From Histomonas meleagridis (lineage: Eukaryota > Parabasalia > Tritrichomonadida > Dientamoebidae): 64,000 nucleotides of DNA. Made by a program: the position numbers and the translations under genes. The notes under the pieces were generated by a model. That model worked only from the letters and a program-made list of their open reading frames with translations. It was not told the origin of the DNA and did not search any database. The stretch lies in assembly GCA_020186115.1 (NCBI GenBank), contig WSYJ01000036.1, forward strand, positions 1 through 64,000, in the 5' to 3' direction. This document shows positions 533 to 54,879 of this stretch, piece by piece; the stretch's first letter is position 1, and the number at the start of each line of letters is the position of its first letter.

Positions 533-1516
533 ATGGGAGCAAAGAGATGTATTAAAAAGAATAATGTTAGAATTAATGTCGATGGTGATAGGAGTATAAG
601 TCAGATTAATCCGAGAGCTTGCAGATGGGTTGGAACCCTTAATAATCCTCCAGAAGATTGGCAAATCGTGTTGAAAAACGTATCAGAAGAACTCAATATC
701 AAATACCTTATCGCAGAAAAGGAGTTTGCCCCTTCTACAGGCACTCCTCATATACAATTTTATTTTAGATTATCTTCAAAACTTCATAAAAATACAATAA
801 CTAGTAAATTACATGGCTGTTTCATTGATATTGCTAGAGGATCTGAGGTTTCAAACTACAAATATTGTACCAAAACTGGTGTCGAAATATTAGAAATAGG
901 TAGTCCAATTGGAGCGATTGAGAATGAACGAAATAAGATTGAAAAAACAAGAGAGATGCTAAATGATGTTATAACAATGCCTTGGATTGAGTTCGAAGCA
1001 AAATGGCCTTACCAGGCATTTCACCATTACAATAAGCTCAATGAGTACAAACTGAGACACGAGAAAACAGAAAACGTATGGAATGGAAATCTAAAGAGTA
1101 AAAATAAATGGATATATGGGCCGCCAGGAACAGGAAAGAGCCGGTGGGCGAGACAGCAAGCTACGAATTTAAATAAAGTGTACAAGAAAAATCTCAATAA
1201 GTGGTGGGATGGGTTCCACAATGATGAAGCAGAGGTTGTGGTCTTAGATGAAATGAACCCAAATAAAAGTGTCTTAGTCGATCAGTTGAAGGACTGGGGA
1301 GATCGTTACCCTTTCCAGGGGGAAGTAAAAGGATCAGCAATGACATTAGATCCTGGCCGTTGGTTTCTAATAGTTACAAGTAATTTCTCTATTGAACAGT
1401 GTTTTCCGAACAGCGAGGATCAGGAGGCCATTAAACGCCGATTTGATGAAGTAGAGATAAAAAGTGCTGAGGACATACGTCTAATGGGTCAATTAGACAA
1501 AGGAATTCTGAAATAA
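533..1516 (+). CDS. rep: CRESS-DNA-virus-type replication initiator (Rep), integrated and intact
   Basis: This 327-residue protein has the two-domain plan of rolling-circle Rep proteins of circular ssDNA viruses. The HUH endonuclease half shows motif I (WVGTLNN, ~32-38), motif II with the metal-binding pair H73/Q75 (PHIQFYF) and motif III YCTK with catalytic Tyr111 and Lys114. The superfamily 3 helicase half shows Walker A GPPGTGKS (196-203), Walker B VVVLDE (235-240), motif C with Asn284 (FLIVTSN) and an arginine-finger region RRF (302-304). Nothing in the sequence breaks it: no stop, frameshift or missing key residue. Rep genes are known as integrated copies in protist genomes including Trichomonas. 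An Inr lies just upstream and iteron-like repeats precede it. Whether it is expressed, domesticated or part of a mobile replicon cannot be told from sequence. Confidence 0.92.
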   Translation: MGAKRCIKKNNVRINVDGDRSISQINPRACRWVGTLNNPPEDWQIVLKNVSEELNIKYLIAEKEFAPSTGTPHIQFYFRLSSKLHKNTITSKLHGCFIDIARGSEVSNYKYCTKTGVEILEIGSPIGAIENERNKIEKTREMLNDVITMPWIEFEAKWPYQAFHHYNKLNEYKLRHEKTENVWNGNLKSKNKWIYGPPGTGKSRWARQQATNLNKVYKKNLNKWWDGFHNDEAEVVVLDEMNPNKSVLVDQLKDWGDRYPFQGEVKGSAMTLDPGRWFLIVTSNFSIEQCFPNSEDQEAIKRRFDEVEIKSAEDIRLMGQLDKGILK

Positions 1517-1849: not shown

Positions 1850-3047
1850 TTGCACTTTATTCACTTACCTCATCGAGATTATTATAGACACAAGGAAATA
1901 TGTGACCTAGTTTTCGATCTCTTTCCAAATAAAACAAGAGGAACAATAACAGATTTAAGCAAACAATTCAATATTCCAGAATCTACCATTCGTGGGTGGT
2001 ACCACAAGTGGGAACTTAACAAAGCATGGCGACCTTACGACAGCTCAGTTCACGGGATTCATCATCGTATATTTACCGATGCTGAAGAAAAATCAATTGC
2101 TGATTACATCCGATTTAATTTTATAACGCTAGGGTTTTTGTTTCAAAACAAAGACTTCGTTAACCTCGCATCTCAAGGATTTCTTGAAAAGCATATGGAT
2201 GATGATGAAATCCTTGATGTGAAGTTCAGTCCTAAGTTTGTAACTGATTTTAAAAAGCGCAATAAACTGAGTAGTAGGCGAGCTCGGTACAGGAGAAGAC
2301 CAAAGGTCAAAGATATGGAAATCGATAAATGGATCAATGAAGTCAAAGAATTAATTGAAAGCAAACCAGCAAATAGGATCATAAATGCTGATGAAACTTC
2401 CTGGAAAATCTTGCCCTCTTCGATAACTACATGGGCAGATTCTGGATCAGATGCAATTGACATCAAAGTTTCAGATTCAGAGAAAAAAATGATTACTGTA
2501 ATGGCCTCGATCACATTCGCTGGCACCAAGCTCCCATTATTCATGACCGAATTAGTTGAACGAACACAACTTGGTGATATTTCATATCACATGTCAGCCC
2601 ATAGCGAATCAGGATGGATGGAACAAGATAATTTCGAAAGTTACTTAATATGGCTTAGACAACAATATAGTGATGATGACACGTTGTATCTAATCATTGA
2701 CCAATTTCCAGTTCACAAGACAACTATGTCCATGCAATTGGCAAATGCATTGAACATAAAAATGTTCTTTATTCCTGCTGGATCAACAGATAAATACCAA
2801 CCACTCGATTATCGCGTTTTTGGGTGTTTGAAGAACGTTGCCAAAGATAGTATTCATCGATTTATTCATGAAAATCCGGGCAAAAAAATCGGGATGAAAT
2901 ATGCGGTTCAAGTACTTATATGGGCATGGGAACACCTTAATTCTGATGTTTTGAACGAAGCATGGTCAATCTATCAATCAATTTGAAATAAATAAACAAT
3001 TTTGATCAAATTTTTACTAGAATAATTAAAAAACAGTATACCGAGAA
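1711..3047 (+). mobile_element. Possible pogo/Tc1-like DNA transposon with short inverted ends
   Basis: TTCTCGGTA at 1711-1719 is the exact reverse complement of TACCGAGAA at 3039-3047, and the two enclose the transposase frame, giving a ~1.34-kb unit, the usual size of Tc1/mariner/pogo elements. The inverted ends can be followed for only about nine bases and no clean target duplication is visible, so the boundaries are tentative. Confidence 0.35.
1850..2986 (+). pseudogene. pogo/Tc5-like DDE (DD35D) transposase without an ATG start
   Basis: The frame encodes an N-terminal helix-turn-helix region (residues ~25-60) and a DDE catalytic domain. The three catalytic Asp residues are visible: D181 in INADET, D284 in LIIDQFPVH and D320 in YQPLD, with 35 residues between the last two, as in DD35D pogo-type enzymes. 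The open frame begins right after an in-frame TAA at 1835-1837, but its first plausible codon is TTG at 1850. The first in-frame ATG lies at about residue 116, inside the protein and past the HTH. A sequence resembling an Inr (GCACTTTATTCAC) overlaps the putative start. The catalytic core is undamaged, so either the start codon was lost recently or an unseen upstream exon supplies it. Confidence 0.75.
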
Positions 3048-5671: not shown

Positions 5672-5826
5672 AAAATTCATCTAATTAATATTAACATTTT
5701 TCTTCTTTTTAATCACTTTTTAAATGATTTATAAACCTTCCAATTTTTGGGAGTGTGTTTCTGTTAAATGTGATCGTTTAAAATTAGGGGGACTTGAAAT
5801 ATCGGTATCACTTCAAGACATCTATA

Positions 5827-8800
5827 ATGAATTCTACGATAAACTTTATAGAAGGTGAAAAGAGGGATAACAATGAATCTATCGCATATGTTAATTTACT
5901 TGTTTCTCTTGAACGAATTATATTTAATTTAACAGAAAGAAATCTTGATTCATCAATCGATAAAATAATGAAATTATTCGATATAAATCATCCCTATTCA
6001 TATAATTTTATAATAGGAAGTTTGGTTTACTTTGCATATTTTTCAACACCAAATAAATCATATGATTTATACCTCAAATTTTTGGAATCTATACAATTAA
6101 GAGAAGAAGAAATGAACAAAAATATTTTCAAAATATTAAAGATTTTTATTAATTATATATCAGATATTGAATCACAAGAAGCATATTTTCTAATTGAACA
6201 AATGAAAGTAAGAAATTTAATTGATAACGATAATATTCATGATAATATGATTAAAAAACTTTTCATATGTCCAAATAAACAATCAATACATAACATTTCT
6301 TTATGTTTTGCCCATTACATGTCAAATAAAGAGATTAGTGAATCAATAAAAGCCAATCAATTTTCCAAATTCTTTTCAAACAACGAAGATATGCTCAAAA
6401 AGAATGATTGGGAACTTCATAAGAAATTAATTGAAGAAGGAATCAATCCAAATAAAATGACAAAAATAATTCGAAATGATGAATTAGAAAAGCTTCAAGA
6501 AATATCATCACAAGATGATTTTGATTTTAATCAGAAAATTGAACCATCACTTTATGAAAGATGTTCATTTATTAATGTAAAAAATGTTTCATTAATTGAT
6601 TATGCAGCATTCTTTGGATCTATTAAATGTTTTAAATATTTACTTATGAATGGAGCAAAAATAGAAAACACAGGTAAATATGCAGTTGCTGGTGGAAACT
6701 TAGAAATAATTCATTTATGTGAACAGAATCATTCAACATTTGAAGAAGCATGTAAAATTGCAATTGAATTTCATCGAAATGATATCTTTAAATATATATA
6801 TGAAAATAAAACAGAAAAAACTGAAGAAAAAATTGATGTTTTAGAATATTTATGTATTACCTATGGAAATTATGAAATTCTTTTCTTTTTGGAAGAACAA
6901 ATGAGGATCAGTGAATCTATTATTACTGAAACAGCAAAATTAGGAAATTTATATCTTATTAAATATTTCTTTCATAAATATCAAATCCCAAATAATATTT
7001 TAGTTTTTGCTGTAGAATCAGGAAATATAGAACTTGTTAAATATATTCTTGAACAAAAAGGAATTGATGTTAATGCTATGGGAAATCATTTTTTATATTT
7101 AATATTTATATTAATAATTTTGGGTTTTAAAATTTTATTTGGTATTTATTCTTACTTATTAGAATAGCACTTATTCTTGCATCTGAAAAAGGTAATATGG
7201 AACTTGTGAAGTTACTTCTTGAACAAAAAGGCATTGATATTAATAAAAGAGGAATTTTTTTGTTTCATATCATATTTGCTTCAATTATTTTTTAATATTT
7301 CTTTATATTATTTGGAAATTATTTAATTTAATTAACTCAGCACTTATTTGTTCAACTTTAAATAATGATATAGAAATAGTTAAATTACTTCTTGAACAAA
7401 AGGATATTGATGTTAATGTTAAAAATGTTTGTATATTTCGTTTAATGTTTGTTTAAATCATTTTATATATTAAAATAATATTTGGAAATATTTTCAAATA
7501 TTTGAAACAGCACTTATGATTGCGTCATCAAATGGATTTATAAATATAGTTAAATTACTTATTGAACAAAAAGGAATTGATATAAATGCTAAAAATGTTG
7601 AATTTTTTTGTTTATTATTTATTTTAATAATTTTATATTTTAAAATAAATTTTGAAATTTATTCCATATGTTGAGATCAGCACTTACAAAGGCATTCCAA
7701 TATTCACATTTAAATATTATTAAATTACTTCTTGAACAAAAAGGAATTGATGTTAATGCTAAAGATATTTATTTGTTTTACTTGAAGTTCATTTGAATAA
7801 TTTAAAATTACAAAATAATATTTGGAAATTACTTAAATTACTTTTGACAATGTTTATATGGGCATCTTCAAAAGGATTTATAGATATAGTTAAATTACTA
7901 CTTGAACAAAAAGAAATAGATATTAATGATAAAACTATTTATGTGTTTTATTTAATATTTATTTTAACAGTTTTTTATTTCAAAATAATATTTGGAAATT
8001 ATTTTATTTATTTGTAACTGCACTTCATATAGCAATTAGAAATAATAATACAGAAATAGTTAAATTACTTCTTGAACAAAAAGGAATTGATATCAATGCT
8101 AAAAACATATATTTTTTTCATTTTATGTTGACTTTCATAATTTCATATTTCAATATAATGTTTGGAAATTATTTAAATTATTTGATACAGCACTTATTTT
8201 AGCATCTTATGAAGGTCATACAGAAATAGTTAAATTACTTCTTGAACAAGAAGGAATTGATATTAATGTTAAAGGAAATATTTATTTATAAAATTTTATA
8301 TTTCACAATAATATTTGGAAATTATGTAAATTATTTAATACAGCACTTATGTTTGCATCTGAAAATGGTCATATAGAAATAGTTCAATTACTTCTTGAAC
8401 AAGAAGGAATTGATATTAATGCTAAATATATTTATTTGTTTTATTTATAATTTATTTTAATAATTTTATATTTCAAAATAATATTTAAAAATTATTTAAA
8501 TTATTTAATACAGCACTTATTTTAGCATCTGAAAAAGGTCATACAGAAATAGTTAAATTACTTCTTGAACAAGAAGGAATTGATATTAATGCTAAAGATA
8601 ATTATTTGTTTTATTTAAAATTTATTTTAATAATTTTATATTTCAAGATAATATTTGGAAATTATTTTAAATGTTTTATACAGCACTTATGATTGCATCT
8701 AGAAATGGTCATATAGAAATTGTTAAATTACTTCTTAAACAAAAAGGAATTGATATTAGTTCTAAAGATATTTGTTTATTATAACTAAAATTTATTTGAA

Positions 8801-8939
8801 TAACTTCATATTTTTTCATTGTATCTGGTAATTATTTAAATTATTTAGTACAGCCCTTATGAATGCACTTAATTATAGTCATCCTGAAATTGTTGAAATA
8901 TTACGCCAATATGAAAATTCTAATAACATATGTAAATAA
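5827..8939 (+). CDS. DUF3447/ankyrin-repeat protein, each C-terminal repeat split by a short spacer
   Basis: The ATG at 5827 follows an Inr (TCACTTC, 5808). The open N-terminal segment (to ~7083) carries the trichomonad DUF3447 signature (YERCSFIN, SLIDYAAFFG, GKYAVAGGNLEIIHLCEQN) and the first ankyrin repeats. Beyond it the single frame ends, but eleven further ankyrin repeats follow, each ~29 codons and free of stops (type ALILASEKGHTEIVKLLLEQEG then IDINAK). The GCA-type codons opening them lie at 7167, 7340, 7510, 7680, 7850, 8020, 8190, 8343, 8513, 8683 and 8853. Between repeats are ~68 AT-rich bases with stops and a frame change. The last unit ends in a natural terminus (NICK, TAA at 8937-8939). 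I infer one gene with removable spacers rather than a pseudogene, because all eleven repeats stay open. The function of these proteins is unknown. Confidence 0.7.
7167..8939 (+). repeat. 170-bp ankyrin-plus-spacer tandem units
   Basis: Consecutive units measure 173, 170, 170, 170, 170, 170, 153, 170, 170 and 170 bp. Each holds ~29 open ankyrin codons followed by a spacer whose best-conserved part is AAAATAATATTTGGAAAT. Seventeen bases after that block comes the Thr/Ser codon opening the next repeat, usually in the context ACAGCACTTAT. Because 170 is not a multiple of three, the repeats cannot be read in one frame. Confidence 0.85.
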
Positions 8940-23458: not shown

Positions 23459-23879
23459 ATCGTGACCAAGTAATTTGATGGTTTTTTCATGATAGTTACT
23501 TTTTGCTCGTGAAAGTGCTGTTTCAAATATTTTTAATAATTTCCAAATGTTATTTTGAAATTCTAAATTAATAAAATAAATAAATATCTTTAGCATTAAA
23601 ATCAATTCCTTCTTGCTCAAGAAGTAATTTAACTATTTCTGTATGACCATTTAAAGATGCATACATTAGTGCTGTCCAAAATAATTTAAATAATTTCCAA
23701 ATATTATTTTGAAATATGAAATTATTAAAATAAATATTAAATAAAACAAATAAATATCTTTAGCATTAATATTAATTCCTTCTTGTTCAAGAAGTAATTT
23801 AACTATTTCTGTACGACCATTTGAAGATGCTAATATAAGTGCTGTATCAAATATTTATAAAATATTTTAAATAAGTGAA

Positions 23880-24480
23880 ATAAATTGTAAATTATTTAAT
23901 TAAATATAAATCATAAATTATTGAAATAAAATTCAAAATATTAAAATAATCATCAAATATAAAAAATAAATTGTAAAATACATAAATAAATACCTAATAA
24001 CTAAAACAAATATTAAATTTTTAATATTGATCCAAAATTATTAAAGTAAATATCAAATTATTAAAGCTAATATAAAACTTTTATAACAAATATAAAGCTA
24101 TTAAAATAAATATTAAATTATTAAAACAAATCTGAAATTATTAAAACAATTCTCAATATATTAAAATAAACATGGATTGCATTCACGTCAACCCCATTTT
24201 CTAATAGTAATTTCACTATTTCTACAGAATTATTCTGAATAGCCATATGAAGTGCTGTTCCAAAATGATAAAAAATATTTCAGATATATAAAATAAATAT
24301 CATATCAATAAAATAAATATCAGGTTATTAAAATAAATACCAAATGATTAAAATAAATGCAAAATTATTAAAATAAACATAAAATTATTAAAATGAACAT
24401 CAAATTATTAAAATAAACGTAAAATTTTTAAAATGAACATAAAATTATTAAAATAAATTTTTTTATTAAAGTCAATTCCT
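23880..24480. repeat. Expanded AT-rich tandem spacers
   Basis: Two tracts (~23880-24170 and ~24280-24470), separated by one ankyrin unit, repeat an AATAAATATCAAATTATTAA-like ~20-nt motif with variation. They occupy the place where other ankyrin units have a ~68-nt spacer, so the spacer itself appears to have expanded. Confidence 0.6.
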
Positions 24481-24822
24481 TTTTCTAAAAGGAATTTTAC
24501 GATTTCTGTATTGTTGCTTTTAGCAGCCAAAAAAATAGTTTTGCCAAATAGTTAAAAGGTATGTGAAATTAAAATAAATATTAAATTATTATATTAAATA
24601 TATTTTGTATCAAACTTAAATTCTTTTCGATTTAATAAAAATTTCATAAGATATAAATTTTCAAATTTTATTGTATCATTAAAAATATTAACATCAATTT
24701 TCATTCCTTCTTTTAGTAAATAAGAAAAAATTTCATAATTACTGTATTCAATACATTCCTTACCAAGTTTATCCATATTTTCTACTTTAAAGATTTTGTT
24801 TTCATAAAGATATTTAAATATA

Positions 24823-40145: not shown

Positions 40146-41120
40146 TTATATTTCTTCTTCTTTAGTTTCTTCCTTTTCTTTTTCCTCTTCTTTTATTTCT
40201 TCTTCTTTCATTTCTTCTTTTAATTCTTCTTCTTTAGTTTCCTCTTTTTCCTCTTCTTTAGTTTCATCTTTATTTTCTTCTTTCACTTCTTCTTTCATTT
40301 CTTCTTTTATTTCTTCTTCTTTCACTTCTTCTTTTAATTCTTCTTCTTTAATTTCCTCTTTTTCTTCTTCTTTAGTTTCTTCTTTTTCCTCTTCTTTAAT
40401 TTCTTCTTCTTTAGTTTCTTCTTCTTTCGTTTCTTCTTTAATTTCTTCTTCTTTGGTTTCTTCTTTTTCCTCTTCTTTTAATTCTTCTTTTTCCTCTTCT
40501 TTAGTTTCTTCTTTCATTTCTTCTTCTTTAGTTTCCTCTTTTTCTTCTTCTTTTTCAGTTTCTTCTTTAGTTTCTTCATTTTCTTCTTTCACTTCTTCTT
40601 TTTCAGTTTCTTCTTTATTTTCTTCCTTTTCTTTTTCCTCTTCTTTTATTTCTTCTTTCATTTCTTCTTTTAATTCTTCTTCTTTAGTTTCCTCTTTTTC
40701 TTCTTTCATTTCTTCTTCTTTAGTTTCCTCTTTTTCTTCTTCTTTTTCAGTTTCTTCTTTATTTTCTTCCTTTTCTTTTTCTTCTTCTTTATTTTCTTCT
40801 TTCATTTCTTCTTTTTCCTCTTCTTTCATTTCTTTTTTAATTTCTTCTTTCACTTCTTCTTTTTCAGTTTCTTCTTTATTTTCTTCCTTTTCTTTTTCCT
40901 CTTCTTTTATTTCTTCTTTCATTTCTTCTTTTAATTCTTCTTCTTTAGTTTCCTCTTTTTCTTCTTTCATTTCTTCTTTTATTTCTTCTTTTATTTCTTC
41001 TTTTATTTCTTCTTTAACTTCTTCTTTAGTTTCTTCCTTTTCTTTTTCCTCTTCTTTTATTTTTTCTTCTTTAACTTCTTCAACTTTTTCTTCTTTATTT
41101 TGTTCTTTCACTTCTTCTTT
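40146..41120. repeat. About 1 kb of strand-asymmetric polypyrimidine/polypurine tract
   Basis: The plus strand is almost only T and C (TTCTTCTTT-type triplets) for ~975 bp, with scattered A and G. It encodes the Glu/Lys region on the minus strand. Such tracts can form intramolecular triplexes (H-DNA) and slip during replication. Confidence 0.85.
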
Positions 41121-41495
41121 TATTATCTCATTTTCCTTTTCGCTGATTTTTTGATCTTCAAATTGATAGAGTCCAAAATTCACAGCAAAAACTGAACTAC
41201 ATGTTTGTAATTTTTCGATTAGTCTTGAAAATGTTTGGTTTGTGTTAGGTTTTTTGGATCTATTTAATTCATTTTTCGCTATCATAAACCCAAACTTTTT
41301 TGAAAATTTTGATTGTACACTTTTTGCTTTAACAAGGGTGCATGAAATAACTTTCTTCAAATTGTTGGAAATTGATTTTAAGATTTTTTGCATTTGTTGG
41401 ATAAATTTTTTATAAAAAGTTTCATCGCTAGGTGAAGCTTGGCCATTATTTGATTCAAGATTTCCAAATACACAAGTTAGATAAAGAATCAGCAT
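40146..41495 (-). CDS. Glu/Lys-rich low-complexity protein with a possible signal peptide
   Basis: The 449-residue product starts MLILYLTCVFGNLES, a plausible signal peptide, followed by ~110 ordinary, partly basic residues (FYKKFIQQMQKILKSISNNLKK, AKSVQSKFSKKFGF). From ~residue 120 to the end it is almost only Glu and Lys with occasional Thr, Met, Ile and Val in KEEEK, KEETKEE and KEEMKEE units. The protein should form long charged helices or stay disordered. No function can be inferred. Repeats of several lengths suggest length variation between strains. The opposite strand is open too (40453-41154, Ser/Phe-rich), an artefact of the TTC/TCT repeats. Confidence 0.6.
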   Translation of the reverse strand: MLILYLTCVFGNLESNNGQASPSDETFYKKFIQQMQKILKSISNNLKKVISCTLVKAKSVQSKFSKKFGFMIAKNELNRSKKPNTNQTFSRLIEKLQTCSSVFAVNFGLYQFEDQKISEKENEIIKEEVKEQNKEEKVEEVKEEKIKEEEKEKEETKEEVKEEIKEEIKEEIKEEMKEEKEETKEEELKEEMKEEIKEEEKEKEENKEETEKEEVKEEIKKEMKEEEKEEMKEENKEEEKEKEENKEETEKEEEKEETKEEEMKEEKEETKEEELKEEMKEEIKEEEKEKEENKEETEKEEVKEENEETKEETEKEEEKEETKEEEMKEETKEEEKEELKEEEKEETKEEEIKEETKEEETKEEEIKEEEKEETKEEEKEEIKEEELKEEVKEEEIKEEMKEEVKEENKDETKEEEKEETKEEELKEEMKEEEIKEEEKEKEETKEEEI

Positions 41496-41838: not shown

Positions 41839-43997
41839 TTAATGTTTTTTCAGTAATTTGAATATTTCTTTGTGCCCATAAATATATGCGATATCAAGAG
41901 CTGTTTCAAATATTTTGAATAATTTCCAAATATTATTTTGAAATATCATGTCAACAAAACAAATACTAAAGAAAATAAGCAAATATCTACAACATCAATC
42001 TTTATATCTTTTCGTTTAAGAAGTAATTTAGCAACATCTAAATGACCTTTTTCAATTGCAATCATCAGAGCAGTTTTAAATCATTGTAAAAAATTCGAAA
42101 TAATCTTTAGATAAATAAAATTTTTAAAACATATATAAAGTAAACTAAATAAATAGTTTTGGTATTAACATTAATATTTTTTTGCTCAAGAAGTAATTTA
42201 ACGACATCCAAATCTCCAATCATAGAAGCCAAAATAAGGAATGTGTAAAATATTTTAAATAATTTCCAAATATTATTTTGAAATATCAAAATAACCATAA
42301 AAATATTTAATAAGATAAACAAATATCTTTCATATTAATATCAATTTCTTCTCGTTCAAGAAGTAATTGAACAATATCAATATGGTTACAAGCAAGCATA
42401 AGCGCTGTAGAAAATAATTTTAATAAAATCCAAATAGTAATTTTAAATATCAAATATTACTAATAAATATAAAATATAACGAATTGATATCTCTTGCATT
42501 GATATTAATTTCTTTTTGTTTAAGAAGTGATTTAACTATTTCTGTATAACCAAAAATTGAAGCTAACATAAGTGGCGTAGCAAATTATTTAAAAAAATTC
42601 CTAATACTATTTTAAAATATCGAAATATCAAAATAAATTTCATATAATTAAAAGAAACAACAAAATAAATAAACAAAATGTTCTATCATTGATGTTAATA
42701 CCTTTATGTTTAATTAGTAATTTAGCTATTTCGATAGAACCTATTTCAGATGAAAGTGCAAGTGCAGAATAAAATATATTAAACAATTTCCAAATATTAT
42801 TTTGAAATCCATAATTATTAAAATAAATATTAAATATAAAAAATAAATATTTTTAGCATTTACATCGATTCCTTTTTGGTCTAAAATATATTTAACAAGT
42901 TCAATATTTTTTGATTCTGCTGCATAAGGCAATATATTTTTAGGAATTTTTTCGGTTTTAAGAAAATATTTTGTAAGGAAAATATTACCAACTCTTGGTG
43001 CTTCATTCACAATTTCTTGATTAAGTTTCATTCCTTTTTCTTTTAGAAATGTAAAAATTTCATAATTATGATACACAATACATAATTGAGTTAAGAATAC
43101 TATCTTTGGATTCGATTCGAGTTGATTTTCATATATATATTTAAAGACATCATTTCGATGATATATAATTGCATTACTATATGATCTTTGAAATACTGAA
43201 TGATTTTGTTCACATAAATGAATAATTTCTTCATTTCCGCCTGCTACAGCATATTTCCCAGTATCAGATACTTTAGCACCATTTAATAACAAATATTTAA
43301 AACATTTAATTGCTCCAAAAAATGCTGCATAATCTATTAGTGATGCATTTGTTTCATTAATAAATGAACATCTTTCATATGGTGATGGCTGAATTTTTTG
43401 TTTAAAATTAAATTTTGACTGTGATGATATTTCTTGAAGTTTTTCTAGATTATCATCTCGAATTATTTTTGCAATTTCATTTGGATTTACTCCTTCTTTT
43501 ATTAATTTCTTATGAATTTCCCATAAATTATCAGCATTTGACTCTCCAATATCATTTAGAAAAAACCTACAATATGGATCATCAAATCCATGAATATTAT
43601 TTTTTTCTAAGAATGGATTTTTTATATTTTCAATTTTTGCATCAATTAAGTTGTTTTCAATCATTTGAATAAGAAGATAATATGATTCTTGTGTGTTTTT
43701 CTTTTGAAGAAAATCTTGGAATTCATTAAGTATGTTTGCTTGAATTTGTTTATTTTCTTCAAATGCTTTTACTTTTTGAAGAAAATTCAAATACATATCA
43801 GAGTCTTTTGGATTTGCCATAAATAATGAATATACAATTTGATAAATAAGCATGTTAAAAGATAAAGGATAATCCCCATCAAAGTTGCTAAAAATCGATT
43901 TTATTGATTGATCAATGTTTTCTTTATTCAACCCAAAAATTGTATTTTTAATTGATAAGAGGAATTCCCATTCATCCTGTAAGTTTTGCTTTGCCAT
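41839..43997 (-). CDS. DUF3447/ankyrin protein with spacer-split C-terminal repeats
   Basis: From the ATG at 43997, an open segment to ~42855 gives the DUF3447 N-terminus (YERCSFINETNASLIDYAAF, GKYAVAGGNEEIIHLCEQN) and the first ankyrin repeats, ending KGIDVNAK. Six more ankyrin units follow, opening at 42765, 42573, 42405, 42241, 42071 and 41901 (steps 192, 168, 164, 170, 170). They include TPLMLASIFGYTEIVKSLL, TALMLACNHIDIVQLLL, TALMIAIEKGHLDVAKLLL and the last, TALDIAYIYGHKEIFKLL, with TAA at 41839-41841. The spacers again carry TTTGGAAAT or a variant 17 nt before the opening codon. All coding units lack stops. It is a paralogue of the gene at 5827-8939, and the two N-termini align along their length. 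Confidence 0.7.
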
Positions 43998-53558: not shown

Positions 53559-54879
53559 TTATAAATAATTCCTAAAGTATGCTGATATCTCTTTGTTTTC
53601 TTGTGCAAGCTGATATGGTGTTTTTCCTATTTTAAATTTGAATAAACAATGTTGAAAGGTTAAAATTAACTTTAATGTTTGGGTCAGCTCCTTTACTTAA
53701 AAGAAATTTTACTATTTCTCTGTTTCCTGCTTTCACTGCATTGTGAAGTGGAGTATTACATCGAAAAATCAAATATTTTATTAAGTAAAAGTACATTATA
53801 AAAAGTATTGATAATTTATCTTCAAAATTTATATCAGAACCATATTCAATTAGTATCTCAATAACATCAGTTTTTCTATTTTTTACTGCATAAAATAATG
53901 GTGTTTGAAATTCGATGATGAAATTCCAAATGAAGAAAAAATAAATAATCATCGAAAATAAAAAAGAAACTTCAATATTAGGATCAATTCCTGATTCAAG
54001 AAGTTTAATGACTATATCAATAACACCCTTTTCAGATGCCGTAAATAACAAATTTGATAAATTAGATTCACAAACATTATTTTCGATAAGGAAATTCAAA
54101 ATTTCAAATCGATCATAATCTAATGCAACATCAAATGCATTTTTATTAAATTTAATTAAACACCATAAAGCAAACCAATTAAATTATATTTGTTAATGCT
54201 AATTTTGAACCTTTTTCAATTAGAAATTGGACTGTTTTCATATGATTTTCTTTAATTGCATAGTGAAGAGGTGTCGATAATAAATTAAAAATAAATTCCA
54301 TCATTTGATTGAACATCAATTTCCATTTTGTTTTTTATAAGAAAATATATAATTTGTATATGTCCATACATTGCAGCAAGATGCATTGGTGTTAATCCAC
54401 TTTGAGTATAAATATTTCCTGCTTTATCATCAAGAGATTTAATACATGAACCCCATAACAATTTTAAAACAGTATATGATCCATATTGTGCTGCATAATG
54501 TATTGGTGTAAAAATAATTTAGAAGTAACACCAATAGAATCCCGTACATTAAAATTAACTCCCCTATTTTCAAGAAGTGTATAAAATAATTGTGAATTAG
54601 AAGCAGCAATAAAATGTATTAAAAATCGAATATATATAAAAAAATATTTTTCTTATCAACAATATTAAGATTTGATCCATTAATCATCAAGTGTTTGAAA
54701 CATTTTTCTGATTTATAATATGCTGCGAATGATATTAATGGTGGATCTGATTTTACAATTTCAGGAAAATTATCTTCTAAATTAGTTACTCTTGAATCAT
54801 ATGAAAGTCCCGAAGCTATTATTTCTTCCAACTCTTCAAGAGAATCTTCCATTAATATTGTTTCTATTTTTTTCTTCAT
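53559..54879 (-). CDS. Ankyrin-repeat protein with very short frame-breaking spacers
   Basis: The ATG at 54879 opens MKKKIETILMEDSLEELEE and an ankyrin repeat ending NIVDKKNI. Seventeen bases later the frame resumes at FLIHFIAASNS. A following repeat ends VRDSIGV and, after 17 bases (TTCTAAATTATTTTTAC or a shifted equivalent), resumes as TPIHYAAQYG, a textbook ankyrin junction. One junction, at DDKAGNIYTQSGLTPMHLAA, has no spacer. Others have ~19 nt (SNDGI to TPLHYAI), ~43 nt, and longer ones. One of these contains TTTGGAATT exactly 17 nt before TPLFYAV. The end is GKTPYQLAQENKEISAYFRN and TAA at 53559-53561. It is a fourth, divergent gene with the same kind of interruption. It is divergent from AP-1 gamma across 62 bp. 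Confidence 0.7.

Follow-up and report, generated by a model that had tools for sequence, protein, structure and literature searches.

Introns near the lower limit of length have been described in several eukaryotes. In the accessible part of one account, those of the mikrocytids (Mikrocytos mackini and P. canceri) are 16 or 17 nucleotides (nt) long, supported by RNA, and called spliceosomal; M. mackini has 224 introns in 179 genes (PMC10245619). The same part gives 15-16 nt for heterotrich ciliates, and a 15-nt intron is also mentioned in the available sections of a second paper (PMC12316389). Those sections describe type B introns of 23-25 nt in Trichomonas vaginalis, with ankyrin genes among the carriers of both intron types. 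There, GT-AG ends and a fused branch site characterize each of the 63 T. vaginalis introns, and no transcript with multiple introns was found (PMC12316389). For Histomonas meleagridis, a parabasalid parasite of poultry, the available text of the published annotation, made for the strain considered here, gives 573 predicted introns and calls them scarce (PMC8529796). Here, we analyse a 64,000-nt stretch of the H. meleagridis genome (contig WSYJ01000036.1 of assembly GCA_020186115.1, positions 1 to 64,000; hereafter the window), in which ankyrin-repeat genes are interrupted by pieces of 17 nt.

An initial annotation had noticed such inserts in one gene (53559..54879, minus strand), and offered ultrashort introns, precise DNA excision, or programmed frameshifting as explanations. 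Our analysis, made at the level of sequence, favours the first. With a probability of roughly 0.7, the pieces of 17 nt make up a new class of ultrashort introns, carried by H. meleagridis ankyrin genes. Bypassing by ribosomes, in the form known so far, is disfavoured, and nothing points to DNA excision. The introns would be in phase 0, falling between codons of the loop that joins two ankyrin repeats, with one to five in a row and exons as short as one codon. In longer arrays, with a 20-nt unit, each unit would be one intron plus one codon. Four properties can be read from the DNA: the 17-nt quantum, the phase, the coding behaviour of the triplets left over, and the lack of canonical splice signals. 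Three features go beyond the initial annotation, namely the scale, exons of one codon in tandem, and the presence of ordinary introns with very different signals in the same genome.

Results

Insert lengths obey a 17-nt quantum

Junctions between ankyrin repeats were located with a 30-residue repeat profile. The sample comprised 20 stretches around ankyrin matches exceeding the profile span (16 with internal stops and four without), 40 stretches around other listed ankyrin matches, eight further loci, and the window. Note that the loci were picked, partly for carrying inserts. There were 378 non-identical junctions. Of these, 82 were free of inserts, with 12 nt between the repeat end and the next Thr, and 204 had 20 to 100 nt in this place. 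The common gaps were 29 nt (n = 8), 46 nt (n = 8), 63 nt (n = 39), and 80 nt (n = 70), each being 12 + 17n, together with a class of 60 nt that belongs to arrays (n = 26). In total, 125 of the 204 insert junctions, from 33 of 45 loci, fit 12 + 17n. Other unit lengths from 9 to 30 gave between 0 and 31 fits. The best were 12 (31 fits), then 16 and 24 (27 each), all three being helped by the 60-nt class. If the loop may have three, four or five codons, 166 of 204 junctions fit; about one in five would do so were lengths equiprobable (15 of 81 lengths). The pieces are of near-fixed length, below 25 nt, and their omission restores one frame, with a minority of misfitting junctions.

Triplets between the pieces behave as loop codons

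The 80-nt class can be parsed as 17+3+17+3+17+3+17+3, and the single codons then spell an ankyrin loop (for instance, K-D-G-N-T). Among the 280 leftover triplets of the 70 junctions there was no stop. The third triplet encoded Gly in 47 of 70 junctions, compared to 59 of 82 insert-free loops, and the mix of residues was similar. Shifting the parse by -1, +1, -2, or +2 gave 128, 15, 9, and 8 stops, with 0, 3, 0, and 0 third-place Gly residues. From column composition, 18.5 stops were predicted where none was seen (65 junctions with clean exons; five of the 70 were dropped). The 17-mers have a G+C content of 7.8%, against 29.6% for the intervening triplets and 28.1% for the exon body. Furthermore, base differences between loci exceeded the 17-mer average at 11 of 12 loop-codon positions. 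Read straight through, an in-frame stop occurs in 49 of 70 inserts of 80 nt, 25 of 26 of 60 nt, and 22 of 39 of 63 nt.

Borders were also set without regard to codons. To do this, a 17-mer profile was trained on the 80-nt class only, and then placed in shorter junctions. Those of 29 and 46 nt are mostly from loci other than the 80-nt set; for 63 nt, 11 of 17 loci are common to both. With all offsets allowed, 136 of 141 placements in the 29-, 46-, and 63-nt classes were in phase 0, the profile itself being cut at a phase-0 border. Gly then fell at loop position 3 in 31 of 39 (63 nt), 6 of 8 (29 nt), and 5 of 8 (46 nt) junctions. Random placement gave a mean of 18.3 and a maximum of 26 for 63 nt, 2.9 and 7 for 29 nt, and 2.9 and 5 for 46 nt. 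In the two shorter classes, the loops were ENGN, RNGK, SIGV, KKGF, KSGW, KAGW, KDGL, IYGK, SDGN, GNGE, and KFGK with Gly, and KFDM, YNNW, SVRR, FFRE, and SRST without.

Arrays of up to 300 nt are found in some genes, with a 20-nt unit made of the 17-mer ATATGTTTTAATAATTT, or a near copy, and a triplet. Array 17-mers were taken at no more than three mismatches, so their sameness is partly made by this limit, and some loci overlap. Between neighbouring 17-mers lay 157 triplets of 15 kinds (GGA, GAA, TAT, AGA, GTA, TGG, and others) with no stops, while the adjoining frames had 63 and 23. The array triplets support the border: with a cut one base earlier, every codon would end in T, and stop triplets would therefore be allowed.

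The pieces lack canonical splice signals

The 17-mer consensus is RTTTATTTNNANNATTT, with an A+T content of 90 to 92%. Of 276 distinct 17-mers, 158 start with AT, 45 with GT, and 73 otherwise; 185 end in TTT. The initial annotation had described its inserts as lacking GT-AG, and this extends to the whole set, since none of the 276 has such ends. The AT...AC ends of U12-type introns were present in two, which does not qualify the pieces as U12-type. A CTAAC or CTAAT branch motif, CTAAC being the form used in this genome, was likewise found in two. With no GT-AG and nearly no branch motif, ordinary splicing is not expected. An A does occur at positions 9-12 in 167 of 197 distinct 17-mers of the 80-nt class, which is too weak as evidence of a branch site. 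Many 17-mers open with RTWTRTTT, which is similar to the GTATGTTT at the 5' end of ordinary introns in this genome.

The ordinary introns, learned from kinase genes, have the form GTATGT...CTAACACATAG. Genome-wide counts refer to 121 contigs and 43.3 Mb; the published assembly, in the available text of its paper, has 187 contigs, so some are missing here (PMC8529796). Genome-wide, there are 17 introns with an exact pair of GTATGT and CTAACACATAG at a separation of 2 to 63 nt (one of 25 nt, and 16 of 57 to 77 nt). Six of seven kinase genes (L069-L075) share one intron start site, which follows LL(A/V), and several GTATGT...CTAACACATAG introns seem to contain an inner hairpin. Introns of the T. 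vaginalis type (GTAYGT, 4 to 34 nt, CTAACACACAG) were sought in the genome and none was present, the organism's own form ending in CTAACACATAG. A search of Rfam for U1 small nuclear RNA gave no match, and the control likewise gave none.

By comparison, a 23-nt string consisting of two codons and a 17-mer has 903 exact copies genome-wide, and two other strings have 492 and 338, counted irrespective of ankyrin-loop context. The reversed strings have none. The 17-nt inserts in ankyrin genes appear to number well over a thousand.

Kinase and LRR_5 domains are not cut up in the same way

Confinement of the pieces to ankyrin genes was tested against two domain types only, kinase and LRR_5. Of 133 kinase matches, seven had internal stops, and all seven carried the canonical intron motif (five at both ends and two at one end). 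One listed LRR_5 match had an internal stop, from a total of 202. For ankyrin, there were at least 29 with internal stops among the matches listed, from a total of 220. Kinase and LRR_5 domains thus do not look cut up as ankyrin matches are, by a test that is weak because a frame-shifting insert splits a match instead of showing as a stop. An open, unsupervised search for coding joins of whatever insert length proved too noisy to be usable. It returned 1397 places outside ankyrin repeats, and a peak at 17 was absent both there and within the repeats, so it neither shows nor excludes pieces elsewhere. One kinase match (G000:C78:376002-376739) lies within an open frame of 22,955 codons, an enormous predicted protein.

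Ankyrin genes of the window

The gene at 53559..54879 (minus strand) runs from ATG to stop with twelve 17-nt pieces and one 19-nt piece. A piece of the gene matched Ank models at the Pfam curated cut-off, with no DUF3447, and an N-terminal piece of 86 amino acids had no match. All coordinates in this gene are on the minus strand. The initial annotation had joined VRDSIGV to TPIHYAA by lifting out 17 nt, and the piece is indeed found at 54510..54526, giving the loop S-I-G-V / TPIHYA. Shifted by one codon, to 54513-54529, it would leave S-I-G / F. A second piece had been proposed between KKNI and FLIHF; it locates to 54629..54645, the best of three phase-0 placements, with the loop K-N / R-FLIHF. 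The gap of about 19 nt, between SNDGI and TPLHYA, is exactly 19 nt (54278..54296). Here the loop is N-D-G / S-TPLHYA, and the 28-nt junction is 9 nt plus 19. The junction QSGLTPMHLAA is free of inserts, just as described.

The earlier description needs one correction. Many junctions contain two, three, four or more pieces with one codon between each, and this gene has ten further 17-nt pieces, in junctions with two, three, three and, C-terminally, two. The first pair (54145..54184) is 54184-54168 and 54161-54145, with the loop N-I / YG / K-NAFDVA. A trio follows at 53908..53970, consisting of 53970-53954, 53950-53934 or 53944-53928, and 53924-53908. Its top-scoring loop is NIE / D / SFG / Q-TPLF, and NIE / DDY / G / Q-TPLF is a close second. 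The next trio (53758..53817) has 53817-53801 or 53814-53798, then 53794-53778 and 53774-53758. The loop reads D-(Y/K)-N-N-N-TPLH, and scores against the 17-mer profile are negative, a poor match. The C-terminal pair (53634..53670) comprises 53670-53654 and 53650-53634, with the loop NIK / N / KIGK-TPYQ.

The first ankyrin gene of the window (5794..8939, plus strand) has DUF3447, 12 repeat matches, and 11 junctions. Nine junctions have four 17-nt pieces and a four-codon loop (NWGR, NYGE, IYER, EKGL, NFGV, YHGD, IYKN, KYGY, and KHGS). One of 83 nt has four pieces and a five-codon loop, HFNGN, and one of 63 nt has three pieces and reads NYGN. All of these loops are followed by T/S/I-A-L or T-M-F. 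The initial annotation had likened an insert of 53559..54879 to the 17 nt before the opening Thr in this first gene. The likeness stands at the level of class (RTTT...TTT), and not as one common sequence. In a DUF3447 ankyrin gene at 41985..43997 (minus strand), five junctions were parsed, four with four pieces and one with five, and the loops are NWGY, VEDGA, YDGS, NDGY, and YYRK. Finally, one junction was parsed in the ankyrin gene at 23586..24770 (minus strand). This is 23755-23676, with four pieces and the loop NHGW-TALMYA. DUF3447 and Ank models exceed the Pfam curated cut-off in two window genes.

Elsewhere in the window, at its left end, a Rep-like gene (Viral_Rep and RNA_helicase; 533-1516, plus strand) adjoins a DDE_1 transposase gene (1850-2986, plus strand). 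These are mobile or virus-derived sequence within the nuclear genome. The protein of 40146-41495 (minus strand) is mostly EEKEE/KEEMK-type repeats.

Similar inserts in proteins from other data sets

A search for a transcript-derived Histomonas protein gave 61 matches, three of which were decoded. Those named as Histomonas are on contigs of this genome. The occurrence of Histomonas and Tritrichomonas matches agrees with a parabasalid source, as does DUF3447 in two window genes. Many of the 61 end at the first loop. P0014 comes from an ENA contig of 2.1 kb. Its identity to the genome matches listed does not exceed 57%, and it is hence not from this assembly. The protein reads straight across an insert of this kind, and back-translation with 17 nt removed gives K-(H/Y)-G-K-T-A-L with canonical spacing; lengths of 15, 16, and 19 give no Gly. 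For P0002, among lengths of 15 to 19, 17 alone gives Gly at the third codon, and Thr is possible though not forced. P0016 reads C-G-x-(T/A)-(P/S)-(L/F) with 17, the sole length tried, if a five-codon loop is allowed. In P0026, an in-frame insert of 25 residues (counted by eye) disagrees with a four-codon loop plus 17n.

Four annotated ankyrin proteins of Tritrichomonas foetus (P0027, P0028, P0034, and P0047) terminate at a repeat loop, with F, L, and I abundant in the tail, as if the gene models stop at a similar insert. The intron interpretation suggests that many ankyrin gene models of this genome are truncated at the first loop, the same perhaps holding for Tritrichomonas.

Discussion

Several observations weigh against the interpretation of the 17-nt pieces as introns. 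To the absence of GT-AG, and the near absence of a branch motif, we add one distinct 17-mer that contains no A at all. The junctions are related, so that counts are non-independent, and for 38 of the 204 insert junctions no fit to 17n is obtained with three to five codons. By eye, several of these misfits hold an 18- or 19-nt piece, while others are missed repeats or look broken; some may be broken genes. In the 80-nt class, shifts of -3 and +3 also give no stops, because the reading falls in near-constant 17-mer ends, but neither gives Gly. Several other array shifts similarly have no stops, with only four to eight kinds of triplet, because they fall in the uniform 17-mer. The Gly counts of the 29- and 46-nt classes are inside the random range, and only the 63-nt class is clear of it. 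The profile-placed loops have no stops in 220 codons, where chance predicts only about two. Of the 63-nt inserts, which keep the frame, 17 of 39 are open and translatable unchanged. P0014 also yields K-I-G directly before T-A-L with 18 nt removed, which fits less well, the loop being one codon short. Lastly, the ratio of non-synonymous to synonymous change (dN/dS) is 0.75 to 0.85 in the exon body, so the proteins are weakly constrained.

If the pieces are not introns, ribosomes might skip each of them. Such programmed bypassing would account for phase 0 in nearly all placements and for the lack of splice signals. It would also demand many successive hops in arrays of up to 300 nt, and in only 5 of 280 cases is the take-off codon identical to the final three bases of the 17-mer, so matching codons are not the rule. 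We think it improbable. There is also a small chance that the genes are dead or dying, with 17-mers as junk that is never removed. The dN/dS near 0.8 agrees with this, as does the resemblance of 20-nt arrays to tandem-repeat expansion, and two DUF3447 ankyrin copies (L034 and L055) appear, by eye, frame-broken in the N-terminal part. Decay should not leave 280 and 157 variable triplets free of stops, nor keep the loop consensus in divergent genes, and a matching arrangement is found in proteins from other data. Broken copies may exist beside the intact pattern.

Another arrangement, with fewer introns, would treat each whole insert (for instance, all 80 nt) as one ordinary intron and the triplets as intronic. 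Totals of 46 to 100 nt do overlap the longer canonical introns, of 57 to 77 nt. Yet the triplets avoid stops, and match ankyrin loops in composition and Gly position, the lengths obey 12 + 17n, and single 17-nt inserts occur. A composite GT-AG intron was looked for by eye over the whole insert, and no consistent in-register GT or AG was found. We give this explanation only a slight chance. Translation of frame-keeping inserts as long loops, to which the open 63-nt inserts lend themselves, is very improbable: inserts of 80 nt are the commonest class and put the sequence out of frame, and most of these, like nearly all of 60 nt, hold a stop. Equally hard to credit is removal of the 17-mers from DNA in some cells or stages, as with internal eliminated sequences of ciliates. 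The pieces are suitably precise, AT-rich, short, and within coding sequence, but nothing here is in support, and parabasalids are not known to have a second nucleus.

Ultrashort introns, our preferred interpretation, would be removed from RNA, with a full ankyrin protein as the product. A modified spliceosome could be responsible, recognizing a short U-rich element by its length, or else a different RNA-cutting activity together with a ligase. The likeness of RTWTRTTT to ordinary introns, with the A at positions 9 to 12, makes it possible that a modified spliceosome accepts U where the 3' AG would normally stand. Since exons of 3 nt between 17-nt introns leave no room for exon definition, removal would be by intron definition, stepwise, or by another cutter and ligase. 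Whether removal is non-spliceosomal or radically altered, recognizing a 17-nt U-rich element by length, cutting strictly between codons and used many times over in one gene family, is a more doubtful matter, and we put this forward as a tentative possibility.

Because each loop codon would be its own exon, 20-nt units of intron plus codon could be copied as cassettes. In this way, ankyrin binding loops could be lengthened and varied residue by residue. Ankyrin loops contact partners, and our guess is that the layout could help to vary and lengthen them. In loop codons of the 80-nt junctions, the ratio of amino-acid to silent change is about 2, as opposed to 0.75 to 0.85 in the exon body, which is a hint of diversifying selection on these loops.

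No prior report of this intron class was found in the open literature, subscription journals and preprints being outside the scope of our search. If correct, our interpretation means that introns without canonical ends, flanking tandem one-codon exons, exist in a lineage thought almost intron-free. This raises the questions of how a machine finds 17-nt pieces separated by exons of 3 nt, and why the ankyrin loop is their site.

How do the pieces compare with known systems? The mitochondrial byps of Magnusiomyces, and gene 60 of phage T4, also have short non-coding pieces in a reading frame. Unlike these, the Histomonas pieces show hardly any match between take-off and landing sites and are in a nuclear gene family. 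Heterotrich introns, which have canonical GT-AG ends, share a fixed ultrashort length, but the Histomonas 17-mers are mostly RT...TT. Canonical introns of the same genome have a similar 5' end and, in addition, a 3' block that the 17-mers lack. Type B introns of T. vaginalis, as described in the available sections of PMC12316389, are likewise short and from the same phylum, while the Histomonas pieces have no GT-AG and are many per gene. The mikrocytid introns, as far as the accessible part of PMC10245619 describes them, are comparable in their almost constant length at the lower limit, in being present in many copies, and in their mutual sequence similarity. The Histomonas pieces, known from sequence alone, differ in being many per gene, in ankyrin loops, and separated by one-codon exons.
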